Positions 25,382 to 52,018 of a stretch of DNA of 64,000 nucleotides are shown here, piece after piece. Below the pieces are notes generated by a model. That model searched no databases, was not told the origin of the DNA, and saw only the letters and a list, made by a program, of their open reading frames with translations. Numbering within the stretch: the stretch's first letter is position 1; each line of letters opens with the position of its first letter. The position numbers were made by a program, and so were the translations under genes. Source of the stretch: a virus; IMG/VR virus record IMGVR_UViG_3300036800_000175, positions 45,877 to 109,876 of that record. One strand, 5' to 3'.

Positions 25382-26042
25382 CTCCGGCGTCTCCCTCCCC
25401 GGGTCGCTTTACCCGGTCAACTTCACCGTACCATAGGATGCGCCTTATCGGGGGCAACCTGGTGCTACCATGATCGGCATGCCGTCCCTGTCGCCCAAGC
25501 AAATCGCTGCGCTCCGCAAGGTGTCCCTGGACACCGTCGAACGTGAGATCCACCGCGGCAACCTGGCCGCCGTGAAAGTCGCCGGCCGGTGGCAGATCGA
25601 ACCGGCCGACGCGGACAAGTGGGTCGCCACGTTCGTCACCTACGCCGCCCTGCGGCAGCCCCGCGGGAAACGCCGCACCTAACAACCACCCGCCCGGCCA
25701 TCGCCCCGCCCAGGCCGTGACAGCCGCGACCGCGGCACCGGGCACCGCGTATTCCTCAGCGACCACGTCCGGGTCCTCCCCCGCCGCGAGCATCCCCGCG
25801 ATCGCGTCGACCACCCGGTGCCGCTGATCCAATCCCCGCCGGCCGCAGATCCCGCACGGGCCGATCCGCGGGAACCACGGGTCTAGCGCGGGGTCGGCGT
25901 GCGCGGCCAGCGCGAGGGCGAGCCGGACCCGGACCTTGTGCGGCCTGCGGGCCCAGTCGGAGATCGTCATGCACCTCTGCCCGGGGATCGCCCCGCAGTG
26001 ATCACAGGACGCGGTCAGCGGATCGACGTCCGCCGGGTTCAC
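25365..26042 (-). CDS. Zinc-ribbon protein with DUF433-like C-terminal segment (3' end doubtful)
   Basis: Starts at GTG 26042, overlapping the upstream stop (GTGA). CDHCGAIPGQRCMTI and CGICGRRG are followed by VVDAIAGMLAAGEDPDVVAEEYAVPGAAVAAVTAW, which resembles the helical DUF433 core. The protein would be expected to end near 25690. Instead the frame stays open to 25365, running antisense through the excisionase-like gene. A lost stop or small indel near 25690 is likely. Confidence 0.55.
   Translation of the reverse strand: MNPADVDPLTASCDHCGAIPGQRCMTISDWARRPHKVRVRLALALAAHADPALDPWFPRIGPCGICGRRGLDQRHRVVDAIAGMLAAGEDPDVVAEEYAVPGAAVAAVTAWAGRWPGGWLLGAAFPAGLPQGGVGDERGDPLVRVGRFDLPPAGDFHGGQVAAVDLTFDGVQGHLAERSDLLGRQGRHADHGSTRLPPIRRILWYGEVDRVKRPGEGDAGDVSDT
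25430..25457 (-). promoter_or_regulatory. Promoter of the 25381-18299 operon
   Basis: On the minus strand TTGCCC (25457-25452), a 16-bp spacer and TATGGT (25435-25430) lie about 50 bp before the first start codon. One of the best sigma70-type promoters seen here by eye. Confidence 0.5.
25479..25682 (+). CDS. Excisionase/BldC-type HTH protein
   Basis: 67 residues from MPSLSPKQ (an ATG at 25470 is also in frame). LSPKQIAALRKVSLDTVEREIHRGNLAAVKVAGRWQI is the HTH_17 fold of phage excisionases and BldC-like regulators, and the basic tail (RQPRGKRRT) fits DNA binding. It stands alone at a divergent promoter region, so a regulatory role is at least as likely as excision. Confidence 0.7.
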   Translation: MPSLSPKQIAALRKVSLDTVEREIHRGNLAAVKVAGRWQIEPADADKWVATFVTYAALRQPRGKRRT

Positions 26043-28419: not shown

Positions 28420-28514
28420 CACCGGCCCTGCACACCTGTCAGGAACGACGCCGTTTGCACGGAGGGCAGGGGGGCGGGCTCATCGGGGGGGAACCCGGTG
28501 GTTTCGTCAGGCAT
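28419..28514 (-). CDS. Coupled 31-residue microprotein
   Basis: [17 protein letters not shown] followed by [14 protein letters not shown]. Starts eight bases inside the end of queD and ends in TGATG. Pro/Asp-rich, no family. Confidence 0.4.
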
Positions 28515-28917
28515 CGTGCGCGGTCCTTCCGGTTGGGGGGGTTACGCGGCTTCGCGGCGGACGCCAAGGGCCGCGGTAGGCGCACCCGGAGGTGCAGGTT
28601 TCCCTGACGACGACCTGTGTCAGCGGCAGCGAGCCGGTGAGCCGGTCCCAGATCCAGCGGGTCAGGTTTTCGCTGGTCGGGTTGGCCAGGCCAGGTATCT
28701 CGTTGAGGTAGTGGTGATCCAGTTGGGTGTGCAGCGGCGCGAACGCGTCCTTGAGATCCCCGAAATCCATCACCCAGCCCGTGTCCGGTCCGACGGGACC
28801 GCTGACGTGGATCTCCACCCGGTAGGAGTGGCCGTGCAGCCGGGCGCACTTGTGCCCGTCGGGAACATGAGGCAGCCTGTGAGCTGCCTCAAAGGTGAAC
28901 TCGCGGGAGATGTCCAT
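28507..28917 (-). CDS. queD: QueD, 6-carboxy-5,6,7,8-tetrahydropterin synthase
   Basis: 136 residues. Zinc ligands H13 (EAAHRL), H28 and H30 (RLHGHSY), catalytic Cys in HKCARLHGH (C24), the LDHHYLNEI motif and the later [12 protein letters not shown] strand identify the PTPS/QueD family at normal length. It converts dihydroneopterin triphosphate to CPH4, the second step of 7-deazaguanine synthesis after FolE. Its start follows the queE stop directly (TAAATG), and queE, queC and a DpdA-like gene lie immediately upstream, so the product is committed to preQ0. No folE is visible, so the host enzyme would be needed. Confidence 0.92.
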
Positions 28918-29559
28918 TTACGGGATCCCCAGGTATTTGTGGGTTTGCAGGCTGAGCCGCCACGCGGGGTGCGCGAGGCAGTATTCGACGGCGAGGCGGG
29001 TGTTTTTCTCCCTGTCCGGCCCGTCCATCGGTTGCAGCAGCAGCCGCGGGAACCCGAGATCCTCAAAGACGGCGGGGTCAAGGTCGTCTTGCGGATAGAC
29101 AAGTTTCAGTTCGTCGCCGCGGGTGAGCCGCAGCGTGGTGCCGCGTTTGGGGCTGACACAGATCCAGTCCAGACCGGGCGGCGGGTCCTGGGTTCCGTTC
29201 GTTTCAACAGCGACCTCAAACCCGGCGGTCTGCATCGCGCGGACTGCGGCCTGGTCTAGTTGCAGGAGCGGTTCCCCGCCGGTGCACACCACGAACGGCT
29301 GCACCCGCTCACCCCTCGCCCCGTCCCACGCGGCCGACACCGCGGCAGCCAACTCGAGCGCGGTGGTGAACCGGCCGCCGCCGGGGCCGTCGGTGCCGAC
29401 GAAGTCGGTGTCGCAGAACTGGCAGATCGCACGGTGCCGGTCCCGTTCCCTGCCGGTCCACAGGTTGCAGCTGGTGAACCGGCAGAACACAGCTGGCCGG
29501 CCCGCATGGGTGCCTTCGCCTTGGAGGGTGTAGAAGATCTCTTTCACCCGGTACGTCAC
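28918..29559 (-). CDS. queE: QueE, 7-carboxy-7-deazaguanine synthase
   Basis: 213 residues. Radical-SAM enzyme with an extended cluster motif C31-x14-C46-x2-C49 (CNLWTG ... ICQFCDTDF). The wider spacing is seen in one QueE subtype. [19 protein letters not shown] at the N-terminus and [19 protein letters not shown] and WICVSPKRG complete the family pattern. It turns CPH4 into CDG. Overlaps queC by four bases. Confidence 0.92.
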
Positions 29560-30245
29560 CGCCGGTCACCCGCCAGTGCCGGGTCAGGGATGCCGAGTTC
29601 GGTGAACGCCGCAGCGCGCACACTGCACGCGCCGCACGCACCGCACGGGCCGCCGGGTGCGGGGTTGTAGCAGCTGAGGGTCGGCGTGTAGTCCACGCCC
29701 AGCCTGAGACCGTGCCGGATAATCGCCGCTTTGGTCATGCGGATCAGTGGGGCCCGGATCTGGACGGGGCCGGCGCTGGTCGCCAAGCCGGCCATCTGCT
29801 GGAACGCGGCCAGGTATCCGGGCCGGCAATCCGGGTATCCGTCGTGGTCGCCGGCGTTGACACCGATGAAGATGTCCCGTGCTCCGATGGTTTCGGCCCA
29901 GGCCAGCGCGAGGGACAGGAACACCGTGTTGCGAGCTGGCACGTACGTCGCGTCGATACTGGCGGCCGGCCCGGCGGGCACGTCGGCGGCCGGGTCGGTG
30001 AGCGCGGATCCGCCGAACACGCTGACATCCACATCCAGGATGAGGTGCCGCACGACGCCCTGCGCGGCGGCGACCCGGCCCGCAGCGGCGAGCTCAGCTG
30101 CGTGCCGCTGGCCGTAACGGAAACTCAGCGCATACGGGGCGAAACCTTCGCTGCGGGCGACCGCCAGGACGGTCGCTGAGTCGATGCCGCCGCTGAGCAG
30201 CACCACAGCTCCCCGGATGGCTGAACGCGGCGGGGCAGTGATCAT
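29556..30245 (-). CDS. queC: QueC, 7-cyano-7-deazaguanine (preQ0) synthase
   Basis: 229 residues. PP-loop ATPase: [14 protein letters not shown] near residue 17, [28 protein letters not shown], and the C-terminal zinc site SCYNP ... [14 protein letters not shown]. It makes preQ0 from CDG using ATP and ammonia. Overlaps the DpdA-like gene by ATGA, linking synthesis to insertion. Confidence 0.93.
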
Positions 30246-31009
30246 GACGCCTCATCCCATAGGAAGCCCTGGTCGCGGGCGGCGAGTTGCTGCCGGGCCA
30301 TGACCTCGTTGAGGCACGGCGGGGCCTGATGGCGCTCGATGCGCTCAGTGAGCACGTCGGCCCGGGTTTCGTTGGTGGCGGGCATGTAGACCCCGCTCGC
30401 CCAGTTCCCGTCGATGCCGATGTTGCGCGCCACGTTCGTTGAGTCAGCCGACGCCATCGGCACGGCGGCGACGATGCGGTGGCTCAGCATGCGCAAGCCG
30501 TGGAGTTTGGTGACCGGCTGCCCGTTCCGGCAGATCGCGGGCAGCACCTTCGGGTCATAGAGGCGTCCAAGGCACTTCGACGGTGCCGACACGTCCCACT
30601 CGGCGGCAGAGCCGAGCGCCACCCGCGGCCACTCACCAGCCAGCCGTACCAGGCGCTCAGGTGATTCGTTCAGGTGCCACACAGGGACGCCGCGGTGGCC
30701 GAACGGCCACGCGGTGAGCAGTTCGTCGTTCTCATCCTCAGTGCCGCCGATGACGTCGGGGATGATGGCCCAGTCACACGCCGGGTGAGCGAGCCACTTA
30801 TCGCACCACCTGTAATACGCCTGCCAGTCCACCGCCTTCCCCTGCTTCCAGAGCGTGAACGCGCCGCAGTCGAGCGCGAACGTCTGGCAGATCGCGGCGG
30901 CCAGTTCGAGTTGGCGCGGCTCAGCGAACGATATGAAGGCGTGCCGGCCACGCCATACCCGGTAGGCACATGTTTCGGGCGTGATCGGGCCGCCGTGGTA
31001 GTGGATCAC
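30242..31009 (-). CDS. dpdA: DpdA/TGT-like base-exchange enzyme
   Basis: 255 residues, GTG start. The protein belongs to the compact TGT-related family found in phages: HYHGGPITP at the N-terminus, LDCGAFTLW (an LDNGAF-type active-site strand with Asp), [19 protein letters not shown] and [19 protein letters not shown] with a second conserved Asp. TGT enzymes swap guanine for a 7-deazaguanine, and DpdA homologues do this in DNA. Fourth in a strict queD-queE-queC-dpdA unit, so preQ0 or a derivative is the likely substrate. Most relatives have Asn where this one has Cys (LDCGAF). The DNA target is inferred from context. Confidence 0.75.
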
Positions 31010-37330: not shown

Positions 37331-37737
37331 GACCGGGCCGCCTCCCGGTCCTCATCACGCCATCCCGGGGGTTGCCGGGCGCGGTCGGTGTCGATCGCGG
37401 CGACCAGGCGCCGGGCGGCGAAGTACAGGGCTGTCTCAGCGCGCATGAGTGCGGGGACGGAGTCTTCGGTCATGGCCAGTTCGAGTTCGGCCAGCAGCAG
37501 CGCGAGGGCACGGTGTACCGCGTCGCGGGCGGCAGCGGCGACGCCGGGGGTTTCATGGTCGTCGTCCCGCCAGCCTTTGGGTTGCCGGGCACGGTTGGCG
37601 TCCAGGCAGCGGACCAGCCGCCGGCAGGCGAAGTACAGGGCCGCCTCAGTGCCCCGGTCGCGGGCCAGCAGCAGTTTGATGGAATGACGTTTTACGGTCT
37701 CCCGGGCTGCGATCACCTCACCGCCGACTAGGCTCAT
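37327..37737 (-). CDS. Internally duplicated protein
   Basis: 136 residues made of two similar halves: EAALYFACRRLVRCLDANRA followed by RQPKGWRDDDHE, and ETALYFAARRLVAAIDTDRA followed by RQPPGWRDEDRE. A third helical segment lies between. The duplication is also visible in the DNA. Function unknown. Confidence 0.65.
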   Translation of the reverse strand: MSLVGGEVIAARETVKRHSIKLLLARDRGTEAALYFACRRLVRCLDANRARQPKGWRDDDHETPGVAAAARDAVHRALALLLAELELAMTEDSVPALMRAETALYFAARRLVAAIDTDRARQPPGWRDEDREAARS

Positions 37738-38822
37738 GCGGCCTCGCCGGTGAGTTCGGTGTACCGGGCTTTGAGGTAGTCGATCAGGGGCTCATGGACG
37801 TCGGGGTCGTGGTCAGTGCACACCGACGTGTCTGGCGGGACCTGCTGGCGCTTGCACTGGGCGACCAGTTTGTTGATGTCGTCGCCACTGGTGGCCAGGC
37901 CGGCGAGATCCGCGATCCGCTGCGCCGCGTCCTCTTCGGTGGTGAGCATGGCGGCCAGATCCTCGATCCGCTCAGCGGCATCCTCCGGCGGGGGCACGTC
38001 GCCGGGATTGGCCCGGTCTGCGAGAGCTGCGGGCAGGGCGCGCTGTTCCGGCACGCCCTTCAACTGGGCGATCAGGCCGGCCGGCCCGGCGGGCAGTTGC
38101 CCTTGAGCGATCTGCCGCATGGACAGGCCGATTTGCAGGCTCAGCACCGGGTACGGGCTGCCGTCATCGGCGCGCTTCCGCCAGTGGATGAACAGCACTG
38201 CCGGGAGGTAGACCCCGCCTTCGCGGGCGATTTCCATCGCCTCACCGGAGTCCGCGATCTCTACGGCAGCGTTTTCGCTGCCGGTGTTGATCCTGAACAC
38301 GCCGGTCATGCCGGGCAGGTCGGGGATGGTGACACTGATGCGGGTCAGCACCTTGCACGCCTGCGGCGGCCGCAACTTGGACAGGCGATTGCGCTCATCG
38401 TGGGCGCGGCGCACCGACGCTGCGTCGGTGGGGTCATCGGCCAGCGGGCACATGCAGGACTTGCCTGAGAGTTCCTCAGTGATCCCGTCGCAGCGGCGCA
38501 GGCGGCGCTGGCCGTCCCACAGTTCCATGCTGGTGTCGACCGGCTGGCCGCGGGCGGGCACCCACACGTCCAGGGCGGTGCGGTCGGTGATGACCTCGAA
38601 GTAGCCCCGGCGCTGCGGCCAGGGGGCGACCGTGCCGCTCTCGTAGTGGGCGGCGACCGCCTCAGCAGTCTGCCGGGTGGGGAGGGTGAACCGGAACGTA
38701 TCGAGGCGGACCGGCTGGCGGCCTTTCTTGCCGGGCACCTCCTTGGAGGTGCCGATACGGATCTCACCGAGCGGGAGACTGCGGCGTTGCAGGCCGAGCA
38801 ACTCAGGGGCACGTATGGGCAT
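37734..38822 (-). CDS. gp3-like recombination directionality factor
   Basis: 362 residues. The N-terminal about 250 match the gp3-like family of serine-integrase directionality factors: RIGTSKEVPGKKGRQPVRLDTFRFT, PWPQRRGYFEVITD, ELWDGQRRLRRCDGITEELSGKSCMC, ACKVLTRISVTIPDLPGMTGVFRI and YLPAVLFIHWRKRA. The prototype phiC31 gp3 switches its integrase from integration to excision. A C-terminal acidic helical region extends the protein beyond that prototype. No integrase lies in the window. Confidence 0.8.
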   Translation of the reverse strand: MPIRAPELLGLQRRSLPLGEIRIGTSKEVPGKKGRQPVRLDTFRFTLPTRQTAEAVAAHYESGTVAPWPQRRGYFEVITDRTALDVWVPARGQPVDTSMELWDGQRRLRRCDGITEELSGKSCMCPLADDPTDAASVRRAHDERNRLSKLRPPQACKVLTRISVTIPDLPGMTGVFRINTGSENAAVEIADSGEAMEIAREGGVYLPAVLFIHWRKRADDGSPYPVLSLQIGLSMRQIAQGQLPAGPAGLIAQLKGVPEQRALPAALADRANPGDVPPPEDAAERIEDLAAMLTTEEDAAQRIADLAGLATSGDDINKLVAQCKRQQVPPDTSVCTDHDPDVHEPLIDYLKARYTELTGEAA

Positions 38823-40927: not shown

Positions 40928-40990
40928 TAGAATGCGGACCGGCTGATCGCCGGCCAGCCCCGGTCTGAACCACCGGGGCTGCTGCCTTTT
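40928..40990 (+). terminator. Rightward terminator, possibly of a very short RNA
   Basis: AGCCCCGGT/ACCGGGGCT stem (40956-40980) followed by GCTGCCTTTT on the plus strand. A TAGAAT box (40928-40933) and a small stem (40939-40953) precede it, although both flanking genes are leftward. It may end an antisense or small RNA. The promoter is weak. Confidence 0.4.
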
Positions 40991-41292
40991 CAGGCCGCCG
41001 CAGCTCGCTTGGGGGTAGGGGTTTCGGTGGCGGGGCGGGGGATGTCCTGCTGGCGTGCGGGCGGGTCAAGGAGCAGGGATCCGATCTCCAAGCCGAGGAC
41101 CAGCTCGAGGATCGCGCGGCGTGCCGTGCCCGGGTTGGCGCCGGCTTCGATGAGGCCGATGTTCCGGCCATCCACCGGGGCCAGGTACTTTTCGCCGCAC
41201 AGACGGCCTAGGGCCTGCTGTGACAGATTCAGCCGCTTTCGTGCTTCGCGGAGGGCTCCCCCGTCGATCTGGGGGCACTTTGCGAGGGGCAT
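40990..41292 (-). CDS. XRE-family repressor (Cro/CI-like HTH)
   Basis: 100 residues. LREARKRLNLSQQALGRLCGEKYLAPVDGRNIGLIEAGANPGTARRAIL is a canonical HTH_3 domain. No C-terminal cleavage domain. Divergent from a second HTH gene with matching operators between them, the classic arrangement of a lysogeny or maintenance switch. It leads the leftward early operon (40907 to about 25365). Confidence 0.8.
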   Translation of the reverse strand: MPLAKCPQIDGGALREARKRLNLSQQALGRLCGEKYLAPVDGRNIGLIEAGANPGTARRAILELVLGLEIGSLLLDPPARQQDIPRPATETPTPKRAAAA

Positions 41293-41303
41293 GCTCAGTA
41301 AAG

Positions 41304-41378
41304 TAGCGCCAAAGAAGCGCCGGCCGCAAGTCCTTCGGCCGGCGCGCCCGGCTCGACCTCAGCGCCGCCTTGGCGCTA
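41304..41378. promoter_or_regulatory. Paired operators of the XRE/HTH switch
   Basis: TAGCGCCAA (41304-41312) and its exact complement TTGGCGCTA (41370-41378) flank a GC-rich hairpin (41317-41344, 10-bp perfect stem) inside the divergent promoter region. The two identical half-sites point inwards as expected for a dimeric repressor acting on both promoters. Confidence 0.5.
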
Positions 41379-41427
41379 AGTTGTCTGGCAACACTTCCCC
41401 CGGCATCACCGGAAGGGGCACCCCCCA

Positions 41428-41835
41428 GTGCCAGACACGACCTACAGGTATGCGCGGCTCGCCGCAGAGATGGACAGGGACCGCCGCGCCAACGGCTGGC
41501 GGTGGGCTGACATCGCCGCCCGCGGCGGCCCGTCGGTCGCGCAGCTGCGGGACCTGATGCACGGCCGGACCGGGGAGCTGTACCCGTCCACCATCCCGAA
41601 GATCGCCCGCGGCATGGGCTGGACGGAAGATCACGTCCGCGGGCTCATCGCTGACGCCGACCCGTTCGACGCCGCAGTCACCGCGGCGTCGCGGGAAGTC
41701 GCGGAGGCGTTCGCGGCCCATTTCCGGGGCCAGGACGTCACCCCGGGTGAGATCGACGCGTGGTTCGCAGGTGGTGAGGTGGCGGAGATCGTGACCCGGC
41801 ACGGCCTGGCACGGCCGCGCAGCCGCGAGGCTTAG
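41428..41835 (+). CDS. HTH protein divergent from the XRE repressor
   Basis: 135 residues, GTG start with GGAAGGGGC upstream. The N-terminal HTH-like region (YARLAAEMDRDRRANGWRWADIAARGGPSVAQLRDLMHGRTG) is followed by PSTIPKIARGMGW, the usual XRE end. A C-terminal helical acidic domain follows. Position fits Cro or an antirepressor. Confidence 0.7.
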   Translation: MPDTTYRYARLAAEMDRDRRANGWRWADIAARGGPSVAQLRDLMHGRTGELYPSTIPKIARGMGWTEDHVRGLIADADPFDAAVTAASREVAEAFAAHFRGQDVTPGEIDAWFAGGEVAEIVTRHGLARPRSREA

Positions 41836-43644: not shown

Positions 43645-44399
43645 GCGGCGGCAGACAGGGACATCCCGCTGGCCAGCAGCGCCTGAGCGCGCCGCTTGAT
43701 GATCAGGTTCCGCGCCGGCCACTCAACGGGGTCGGTGTGCGCCGCGTCCGCAGTCATCTGTGCCGGCCATTTCCGGTACAGCATCCCCACGTCGCGGATG
43801 AACCATCCGGTACTGGTCGCGTTCAAAGCCATCATCAGGCCCGTGTCGGCGCCCGCGGGCAGGGCCATCCACCCGCCCAAAGCCATCAGGGCGCCGTACC
43901 GGATGCACATGGTGGCCGGATGGACCTGAGCCCGGTAGCCGTGGGTGAGCCAGTGGCCCAGCACCGCACCCTGGTCAAGCGTCCCGGTCAGTGGGTCGTT
44001 GCCGAAACCGACGGTGGTGCCGTCGGGCATCAGATCCAGCACCCCGCAGGTCGTCCACATCACATGCGGCCGGGCGGCCAGCACCTTGATTTCCCGGTCC
44101 AGTGTGCCGGGGGTGAGCAGGTCGTCGGCGTCCAGGACCTTGACCAGTTCGCCGTCCGCGCGGGACAGTGCCATGTTCCGGGTGATCGCCTCCCCGCCTT
44201 TGCGGCCGTGCCCGACGCTGATACGCGGATCCAGATCGGTGAGGTAGTCCACGACGCCGGTCTGGCCGTCTTCCTGCACGCACCATTGCCAGTCCCACCC
44301 GCGCGGCATGACCTGCGCGGCCAGCGAGTTGTAGGTGTCGCGGATGTGCCCGGCCGCCGGTGCGTGCACGGGGGTAACAACAGAGACGATGCGGGTCAC
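43641..44399 (-). CDS. Family 2 glycosyltransferase
   Basis: 252 residues from GTG 44399 (GTGA with the GntR stop). GT-A fold markers: IVSVVTPVHAP at the start, GEAITRNMALSRADGELVKVLDADDLLTPG (DxD-type acidic pair) and GTLDQGAVLGHWLTHGYRAQVHPAT. No membrane segment, so a soluble sugar-nucleotide enzyme. Encoded between the GntR repressor and a small gene. Possible targets are the cell surface or modified DNA bases. Confidence 0.8.
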   Translation of the reverse strand: MTRIVSVVTPVHAPAAGHIRDTYNSLAAQVMPRGWDWQWCVQEDGQTGVVDYLTDLDPRISVGHGRKGGEAITRNMALSRADGELVKVLDADDLLTPGTLDREIKVLAARPHVMWTTCGVLDLMPDGTTVGFGNDPLTGTLDQGAVLGHWLTHGYRAQVHPATMCIRYGALMALGGWMALPAGADTGLMMALNATSTGWFIRDVGMLYRKWPAQMTADAAHTDPVEWPARNLIIKRRAQALLASGMSLSAAA

Positions 44400-45211
44400 G
44401 CTGGCCACCTTTGCAGCTGGGTTGTGTAGGCGAACACGGTCCGGTCGCCCGGCAGGATCACCTCTGAATACTCCGCCACGTCCCCCGCCGTGTCGATAGA
44501 CGTTTTCCGGAGCACCAGCACCGATTCGCCATCGTCAAGATCCAGCAGATGCTTTTCGTCGTCGCTCGCCGGCCGGCCGGTGAGCTCGTCGGTGATCTTG
44601 TCGATCTCGATCCCGACGGTGCGGAGTTGATGCATGGTGCCGCCTGGCCACGGTTCGTTGCCGGAGTCCAGCAGGTCAGGGTTCGCGGCGACCAGGTCAT
44701 AGCGCAGCCACGAGGTGACGATGTTCAGCGGCACGTCTTTCGCCTCGCGGACGCTGGTCGCATAGGTGCGGCGCAGCATCGGGGTGCCTTCGGGTATCCC
44801 GAATCGTTCCGCGACATCCCCGGGCGCGGCCGTCATCTCATAGCCCGCAGTGAACAGCAGGTCGCCCATTTCAAGGCCGGTGTCGTGCTCGGTGGCACCC
44901 GTCTCACCCCGCTCGAGCGGCGTGAGCAGCGCCCGGTCCTTTTCCCACTGGTAGCGGGTGGTGTGGTCGCGGCGCACAGGGTGACGCGGGATCCGGACGA
45001 ACGTCCCCCGGCCTTTCTCAGTGCGGATTAGTCCTTCGCCGCGGATGACGTCGATCGCGTGCCGGACCGTGGTCCGCGACACCCCGTAGGCGGCGGCGAG
45101 TTCAGGTTCGCTTGGCAGCTTCTCCCCCGGGCCCAGGTCGCCGCTCGCGATCCGCTCGCGCAGGCCGGCGGCTACCTGGATGTGCTGCGGCCGGTAGTCG
45201 TGTGTGGTCAC
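44396..45211 (-). CDS. GntR/HutC-family repressor with UTRA domain (KorSA-like)
   Basis: 271 residues from GTG 45211. The GntR HTH (IQVAAGLRERIASGDLGPGEKLPSEPELAAAYGVSRTTVRHAIDVI) is followed by the UTRA effector domain (EGTPMLRRTYATSVREAKDVPLNIVTSWLRYDLVA ... SVLVLRKTSIDTAGDVAEYSEVILPGDR). KorSA-type proteins repress transfer genes in actinomycete elements. Divergent from the excisionase-like gene over a palindrome-rich promoter, consistent with repressing both. Confidence 0.85.
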   Translation of the reverse strand: MTTHDYRPQHIQVAAGLRERIASGDLGPGEKLPSEPELAAAYGVSRTTVRHAIDVIRGEGLIRTEKGRGTFVRIPRHPVRRDHTTRYQWEKDRALLTPLERGETGATEHDTGLEMGDLLFTAGYEMTAAPGDVAERFGIPEGTPMLRRTYATSVREAKDVPLNIVTSWLRYDLVAANPDLLDSGNEPWPGGTMHQLRTVGIEIDKITDELTGRPASDDEKHLLDLDDGESVLVLRKTSIDTAGDVAEYSEVILPGDRTVFAYTTQLQRWPA

Positions 45212-45240
45212 GGACCACAAGTTAACACGCCGGTATGTCT

Positions 45241-49975: not shown

Positions 49976-52018
49976 ATGGCTGGCATGCAGCAGCAGGGAA
50001 GCGAAGCCCGGGTCGTGGAGGCTGAGCATCACGGCCTGCTGGTCCCGTTCTACTGGATGTTCGCCTCCGATGCGACCGTCCTGGCTGCCTCCCTGCTGCT
50101 GCCGTCCTGGCGGCTGCTCATCGCCGCCGTGGCCGCCGCGCTTGCGATCGGCAGGCAGGTCCGGCAGGTCCGCCGGATCGAGGATGAGATAGCGGAGGCC
50201 ACCGGGCAGCCGGTGGTCCGCCACAAGCCACCCATCCTGCGGTGGACGCTCGGCACCCTGTGGCTCCTGATCGCCGCCGCGGCCGGGCTGCGCCTGGTCC
50301 CGCAGGTGGTGATGCAGATCCTGCTGATCATCGGCGTGTACGCGATCGCGGCGAAGCACTGGTCCCGCAACCGGGTGCCGCACGACGCCCCGCACACCCG
50401 CATCATCACCTCTGGTGCCACCGTGATCCTGGACGACGACGACGCCCAGGCCGCACCGCCGCAGGCCGCACCGTTCGCCACCCCACCCGGCCCGCCGCCC
50501 ACGCCGGCCCCGCCGCCGCCCGCACCGGCCCCTGCGGAGAGTTCCTATGTGGTGCCCCGGATGGGCACCCTGGCCGCGGGTGTGGTCGCGGCGGCCCGCA
50601 CCGCAGCCAACGATTCCGTGATCCGGGCGCTCACCGAACTGTTTGACCAGTTCAAGGTGGACGCCCGGGTCACCGGCTTCAAACGCGGTCCGACGGTCAC
50701 CCGGTATGAGGTGGAACTCGGCCCGGCAGTGAAAGTTGAGCGGGTCACCGCCCTGACCAGGAACATCGCGCTCGCGGTCAAGACGGCGGATGTGCGGATC
50801 TTGTCGCCGGTCCCGGGAAGATCCGTGATCGGCATTGAGATCCCCAACGCGGACAAGGACCTGGTCCGGCTGGGGGACATCCTCCGCTCACCCGCCGCAC
50901 TGATGGACCCCCATCCGATGGTTGTGGGGCTCGGCAAGGACGTTGAGGGCCGCACCGTCATCGCGAACCTCGCGAAGATGCCTCACATGCTCATTGCCGG
51001 CGCGACCGGCGCGGGGAAATCCACCTGCATCTACGGGCTGATCACCTCAATCCTCATGCGGGCCACCGTTGAGGACGTCCGGATGATCCTGATCGACCCC
51101 AAGCGGGTCGAACTGGCCATCTACGCCGGCATCCCGCACCTGTACACCCCGATCATCACCAGCGCGAAGAAAGCCGCTGAGGCCCTGGCGTGGGTGGTCG
51201 GGGAGATGGACCGCCGCTACGACGACCTGGCCGCGTTCGGGTTCCGGCATATAGACGACTTCAACGCCGCGGTCCGCGGCGGCAAGGTCGTCCTCCCGCC
51301 GGGCAGTGAGCGGATCCTCAGGCCGTACCCGTACCTGCTGGTCATCGTGGATGAGCTGGCCGACCTGATGATGGTCGCCCCCCGCGACGTTGAAGACTCG
51401 ATCGTCCGGATCACCCAGCTGGCCCGCGCCGCCGGGATTCATCTGGTGCTCGCCACCCAGCGGCCGTCAGTGGACGTGGTCACCGGGATCATCAAAGCCA
51501 ACGTGCCCGCCCGGCTCGCGTTCGGCACCTCAAGCCTCACCGACAGCCGGGTCATCCTCGATCAGCCGGGCGCGGAGAAACTCGTCGGGGAAGGCGACTG
51601 CCTGTACCTGCCGATGGGGGCGAGCATCCCCACCCGGCTGCAAAACGCGTTCGTCACCGAAGGCGAAGTCCGCGACGTGGTCGCCCAGTGCAAGGCGCAG
51701 GGCTCACCGGAATACCGCGAAGACTTCACCACGCCAGACCGGGCGGCCCGGGAAATAGACGCGGAAATCGGTGACGACCTGACGCTGCTCAGGCAAGCCG
51801 CCGAACTTATCATCCGCACCCAATTCGGCTCAACATCAATGCTGCAACGCAAACTCCGCGTCGGGTTCGCGAAAGCGGGCCGGCTAATGGACCTGCTCGA
51901 GGCACGGCAGATCGTCGGACCCTCCGAAGGGTCGAAGGCCCGCGATGTCCTGGTCCGCCCCGACGACCTGACCCAGACGCTCGCAGCCCTGGACCCAGAC
52001 AGTGAAAGGACCACCTGA
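49976..52018 (+). CDS. FtsK/SpoIIIE (TraB-like) DNA translocase
   Basis: 680 residues. N-terminal membrane segments ([22 protein letters not shown] and a second pair near [11 protein letters not shown]), a Pro/Ala linker, then the FtsK motor. [20 protein letters not shown] is the FtsK alpha/beta entry, [15 protein letters not shown] the Walker A (about 342-352), [14 protein letters not shown] the Walker B (about 452-463) and [16 protein letters not shown] the sensor. The last about 70 residues ([28 protein letters not shown]) form an FtsK-gamma winged helix that reads DNA polarity sequences. TraB proteins of actinomycete plasmids use this plan to move double-stranded DNA between cells. Cell-wall hydrolases upstream support that role. 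Confidence 0.92.

Follow-up and report, generated by a model that had tools for sequence, protein, structure and literature searches.

A probable immunity switch with matched operator-like sites in a large actinobacterial phage

The 64,000 nucleotides of viral DNA analysed here (the window, part of a 109,876-base record) appear to belong to a large virus infecting soil bacteria, and the 135 bp that separate two divergent regulator genes within it resemble the decision switch of that virus. Does this region carry the signals of such a switch and, if so, which of the two proteins would be the repressor? The preliminary description proposed a lysogeny or maintenance switch with matched operators and implied that the XRE protein is its repressor. 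Synteny, protein profiles and promoter geometry give good support to a switch of the lysogeny type, but the protein roles have to be amended, since the XRE protein, P0001, is more likely the Cro-like first early gene and P0002 the repressor. The region probably serves a large actinobacterial phage as its immunity (lysis/lysogeny) switch, with P0002 as its putative repressor and P0001 as a Cro-like antagonist. The genes concerned are the following.

40990-41292, minus strand: P0001, XRE/HTH protein of 100 aa, probably Cro-like and heading the leftward early block
41293-41427: divergent intergenic region of 135 bp between P0001 (minus strand) and P0002 (plus strand)
41428-41835, plus strand: P0002, HTH protein of 135 aa with a GTG start, probable immunity repressor of the phrog_6288 type
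37734-38822, minus strand: PF18897 protein ("Gp3-like recombination directionality factor"), adjoining the exonuclease gene as in phages mu1/6 and VWB

A terminase search retrieved 15 viral loci and Streptomyces phage TurkishDelight, and exonuclease alignment searches retrieved seven loci. A divergent pair of repressor and Cro-like genes lies upstream of the exonuclease in all six distinct related viral records (L022/G005, L024, L026, L027, L029 and L030; the near-copy of L029, L028, was not used, and L025 is the same record as G005/L022), and the same layout is found in TurkishDelight (gp54, immunity repressor; gp55, Cro), mu1/6 (gp7 and gp8, annotated as repressor and Cro) and VWB (gp1, annotated as hypothetical, and the Cro-like gp2). 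The exonuclease of the window itself is present in only 1 of the 10 related records first searched and no exonuclease was found in six further related ones; single-sequence scans of viral_contigs with the exonuclease and the PF18897 protein gave no match. As in the relatives, and as in switches of the CI/Cro type, the Cro-like gene heads an early/recombination block, with the exonuclease and the PF18897 protein downstream on the same strand.

This leftward block encodes the exonuclease (phrog_298), the PF18897 protein, a C5 methyltransferase, QueD, QueE, QueC and a TGT-like protein, in agreement with the DNA-modification genes previously assigned to it. The directionality factor named along with them is doubtful because the label derives from how Pfam PF18897 is named. 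Relatives of this protein directly follow the exonuclease in mu1/6 and VWB, the former with an excisionase gene of its own and the latter with a tyrosine integrase, and a RecT protein fills the slot in TurkishDelight; the PF18897 protein may be a recombination partner rather than a directionality factor. QueD, QueE, QueC and a queuine tRNA-ribosyltransferase-like gene stand in a row at 28507-31009 (minus strand), a probable 7-deazaguanine DNA-modification cluster, and a small HTH_17 excisionase-like gene (25470-25682, plus strand) lies inside the block on the opposite strand. The window further contains a GntR-UTRA regulator (44396-45220, minus strand) and an FtsK/SpoIIIE-like translocase with alpha and gamma domains (49976-52018, plus strand). 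A phage terminase and an endolysin are present; no match to a tyrosine (PF00589) or serine (PF00239) integrase was found in the record, which may be incomplete.

At the protein level, P0001 has weak Pfam matches to HTH_31 and HTH_3, below the cut-off, and P0002 a weak match to phrog_6288 (E = 0.0024), the only one in the record; the repressors of four relatives match the same family with E-values of 2.1e-6 to 3.6e-13. Repressor and Cro-like profiles were built from seven relatives, excluding the window, and scored on all open reading frames of the window and on 1,000 shuffled copies. The repressor profile ranked P0002 first (E = 1.5e-6, against 0.28 for P0001) and the Cro-like profile ranked P0001 first (E = 8.7e-4, against 0.095 for P0002), the modest value of the latter match counting against the reading that we favour. 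Pairwise comparison of P0001 with its counterparts yielded nothing convincing, and the structure models were poor (mean pLDDT of 58 for P0002 and 56 for P0001). No close relatives of either protein were found in viral_contigs, nor of P0001 in phages, plasmids or 10 related records; a genome_contigs search with P0001 returned just two clostridial HTH stretches, which were set aside. The two proteins correspond to the divergent DNA-binding regulators of a CI/Cro-type switch, with helix-turn-helix domains by profile that are weak in Pfam, and the C-terminal self-cleaving peptidase domain of a lambda-type CI is absent from the 135-aa P0002. P0001 probably represents the Cro side and P0002 the repressor.

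The intergenic region and its margins contain several perfect repeats.

41304-41312, plus strand: left copy of TAGCGCCAA
41370-41378, minus strand: right copy of TAGCGCCAA, written TTGGCGCTA on the top strand
41317-41345, strandless: perfect 10-bp dyad with a 9-nt loop, overlapping the -35 of the XRE promoter
41382-41390 and 41429-41437: perfect 9-bp inverted repeat, TGTCTGGCA and TGCCAGACA, surrounding the start of P0002

A search of the whole record for further sites confirmed TAGCGCCAA and its complement as the sole exact copies, and no third exact or one-mismatch copy lies within the window, where the motif is not enriched (2 occurrences with at most one mismatch, against a mean of 7.8 in shuffles). 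Both copies are where they had been reported, although "at the two ends" describes them loosely, with 11 bp between the left one and the XRE start codon and 49 bp between the right one and the GTG of P0002. Between them lies the hairpin of the preliminary description, GCGCCGGCCG-N9-CGGCCGGCGC, which is indeed perfect; the TGTCTGGCA/TGCCAGACA pair is a third perfect repeat, absent from that description. Of 2,000 dinucleotide shuffles of the 135-bp region, 0.1% contained at least two perfect inverted repeats, each 9 bp or longer, but among 1,419 real 145-bp windows of this DNA, 36 (2.5%) carry comparable sets; on their own the repeats are therefore only a mild signal. It is the placement of the sites, rather than the repeats as such, that is unusual. 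Read as RNA, the region folds better than shuffles (z = -3.1) because of the inverted repeats. The central dyad has no T run and lies outside both predicted transcripts; an RNA hairpin or terminator reading was discarded, as the dyad is upstream of both predicted starts and no terminator was called. An attenuator at 41382-41437 was likewise rejected, the RNA fold of 41383-41460 being no better than shuffles (z = -1.0). A comparably long dyad does not recur at the same position in all relatives.

Promoter-like elements and paired half-sites occupy the same region.

41300-41305, minus strand: -10-like TACTTT, 7 nt ahead of the XRE ATG (leaderless), with the same geometry in relatives
41324-41329, minus strand: -35-like TTGCGG, with an 18-bp spacer to TACTTT
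41377-41382, plus strand: -10-like TAAGTT of P0002, paired in register with TACTTT by the best own match
41353-41358, plus strand: possible -35 TCGACC, weak, proposed from the sequence, with an 18-bp spacer to TAAGTT
41411-41418, plus strand: GGAAGGGG, possible ribosome site of P0002, judged by its sequence
41305-41321, minus strand: operator-like pair AGCGCCAAAGAAGCGCC at the XRE promoter, direct (GGCGCT-N5-GGCGCT), overlapping the left TAGCGCCAA
41361-41377, plus strand: operator-like pair AGCGCCGCCTTGGCGCT at the repressor promoter, inverted (AGCGCC-N5-GGCGCT), overlapping the right TTGGCGCTA

A standard promoter scan of the region called none. All 9 regions scored (the window, L022/G005, L024, L026, L027, L029, L030, TurkishDelight and mu1/6) have a leaderless-type promoter, TTG-N17-19-[-10]-N5-7-ATG, ahead of the Cro-like gene; VWB was left out of the score because its annotated start lies downstream. 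When -35/-10 pairs 5-7 nt before the start were scored by the best of 12 placements (three distances and four spacers), applied alike to genes and background, each of the nine Cro-like promoters fell within the top 2% of 2,066 ATGs opening a reading frame of at least 60 codons, a background that included the Cro-like genes and omitted L029; in some relatives the starts of these genes were picked by eye. The promoter of the window, TTGCGG-N18-TACTTT-N7-ATG, tied for the weakest of the nine, its hexamers making 6 of 12 consensus matches. The -10 of L027 reads CACCAT, and a strict TANNNT stands at the Cro-promoter distance in 0.3-1.6% of ATGs.

GGCGCT/AGCGCC pairs spaced 11 bp apart occur only twice in the window, both times in 41293-41427, and neither kind of pair has a further exact instance in the whole record. 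Both abut a TANNTT hexamer in the same register: on inspection, the sequences read outward as TTGGCGC followed by TACTTT and TTGGCGC followed by TAAGTT, so the candidate operator ends on a -10-like box in both directions. Judged by sequence, this corresponds to the operators shared by both promoters in a CI/Cro-type switch. The same operator was sought in other viruses (viral_contigs), giving two matches, both within coding sequence of lower-G+C records and taken as chance.

Whether the promoters of each phage are matched was assessed by ungapped local comparison, in which every Cro promoter was set against the opposite strand of the remaining intergenic sequence, either its own or that of another region (8 regions, excluding mu1/6 and VWB; 20,000 permutations). 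Matching within regions exceeded matching across regions (permutation P = 0.002), with the own target ranked first in only 3 of the 8. The best own match of the window is a 21-nt stretch that ends on both -10 boxes. In a longest-word test, P fell below 0.05 in just two of the eight regions, and in the window it is an arm of the dyad, rather than TTGGCGCTA, that gives the longest word. The match between L027 and L030 is better than that of either with itself, suggesting a shared operator. CTTCC-N5-CTTCC type operators are apparently present at both promoters in L027 (4600-4800) and L030 (5420-5630), which possibly form a common immunity group. Taken together, the predicted operators appear to be matched within phages and different between phages, with their position kept.

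How do other explanations fare? That the repeats arose by chance in 70% G+C DNA and bind no regulator is very unlikely: the half-sites are short and G+C-rich, and 2.5% of real 145-bp windows carry at least two comparable repeats, but the only two 11-bp-spaced pairs of the window fall at the two predicted -10 boxes, and the permutation test across relatives (P = 0.002) argues against coincidence. The roles of the proteins could also be reversed, as the preliminary description implied, with P0001 itself the lysogenic repressor and P0002 an accessory regulator. The clearer XRE-type Pfam signal in P0001 speaks for this assignment, and the antagonist role of P0001 is a prediction. We nevertheless consider it unlikely, because annotations name the first gene of the exonuclease operon Cro in TurkishDelight, mu1/6 and VWB and the opposite gene repressor in TurkishDelight and mu1/6, and because the repressor profile is matched by P0002 (E = 1.5e-6) and not by P0001 (E = 0.28).

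We give similarly little credence to a plasmid-type maintenance or copy-number switch in place of a lysogeny switch. It would agree with the FtsK-like translocase and GntR-UTRA regulator nearby and with the tyrosine or serine integrase not found in the record; yet the record encodes a phage terminase and an endolysin, among the syntenic relatives, those with named records are phages, and a prophage maintained as a plasmid would need a lysogeny switch too.

For the immunity switch, the observations comprise the repeats and their register, the gene order shared with relatives and the kinship of the proteins; promoter activity, binding, which of the proteins favours which pair and the role in lysogeny are inferred. 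P0002 would be the repressor and P0001 its Cro-like antagonist. Leftward transcription would run from TTGCGG-N18-TACTTT and start on or beside the P0001 ATG, yielding a leaderless transcript, and rightward transcription towards P0002 would run from TAAGTT. Each promoter would carry a GGCGCT half-site pair, one helical turn apart and ending on the -10 box, such that a regulator occupying the pairs would block RNA polymerase at both promoters; the outcome would depend on how the affinities of P0002 and P0001 for each pair compare. There is a slim chance that the repressor and Cro tell the promoters apart by half-site orientation (direct versus inverted), not sequence; if true, such discrimination would be an unusual route to a bistable switch.

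The locus offers a concrete immunity-switch candidate for large actinobacterial phages known mostly from metagenomes, and a possible role for part of phrog_6288, whose listed function is unknown; a literature text search found no paper on this element. The comparison with relatives suggests a stable layout (a leaderless Cro promoter whose operator ends on the -10 and has its match at the repressor promoter) and a changing operator sequence, such turnover being what sets immunity groups.

Among known systems, the region is similar to the cassette of mycobacteriophage BPs (repressor gp33, Cro-like gp34), with divergent regulators and a small repressor. In BPs (PMC4557955), the -35 and -10 of PR flank OR, and Prep has an operator of its own, ORep, each of the two being built of two half-sites; five regulatory regions are spread across the genome, and the integrase adjoins the repressor. 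The predicted arrangement here likewise places one operator at the early promoter and another at the repressor promoter, with two half-sites each, but the operator sequence differs and a single region carries sites, against five in BPs. Unlike in BPs-type integration-dependent immunity, an integrase beside the repressor was not found in this possibly incomplete record, and unlike the dispersed operators of BPs, L5 and phiC31, no further exact site occurs in it. The same repressor-Cro order is described for Streptomyces cluster BC (PMC12243558). Gene order links the locus to Streptomyces phages mu1/6 and VWB, which share the repressor and Cro-like pair, the exonuclease and the PF18897 relative, but differ in their operators and have genomes of 38-49 kb, compared with a 110-kb record. 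TurkishDelight (gp54/gp55) has a related terminase (55% identity), the same switch layout and a leaderless-type Cro promoter, although its exonuclease aligns poorly, RecT replaces the PF18897 protein and the operators differ. Set beside these phages, the region appears to be an ordinary yet well-defined phage immunity switch, whose predicted operator sequence is its own and whose design is familiar.
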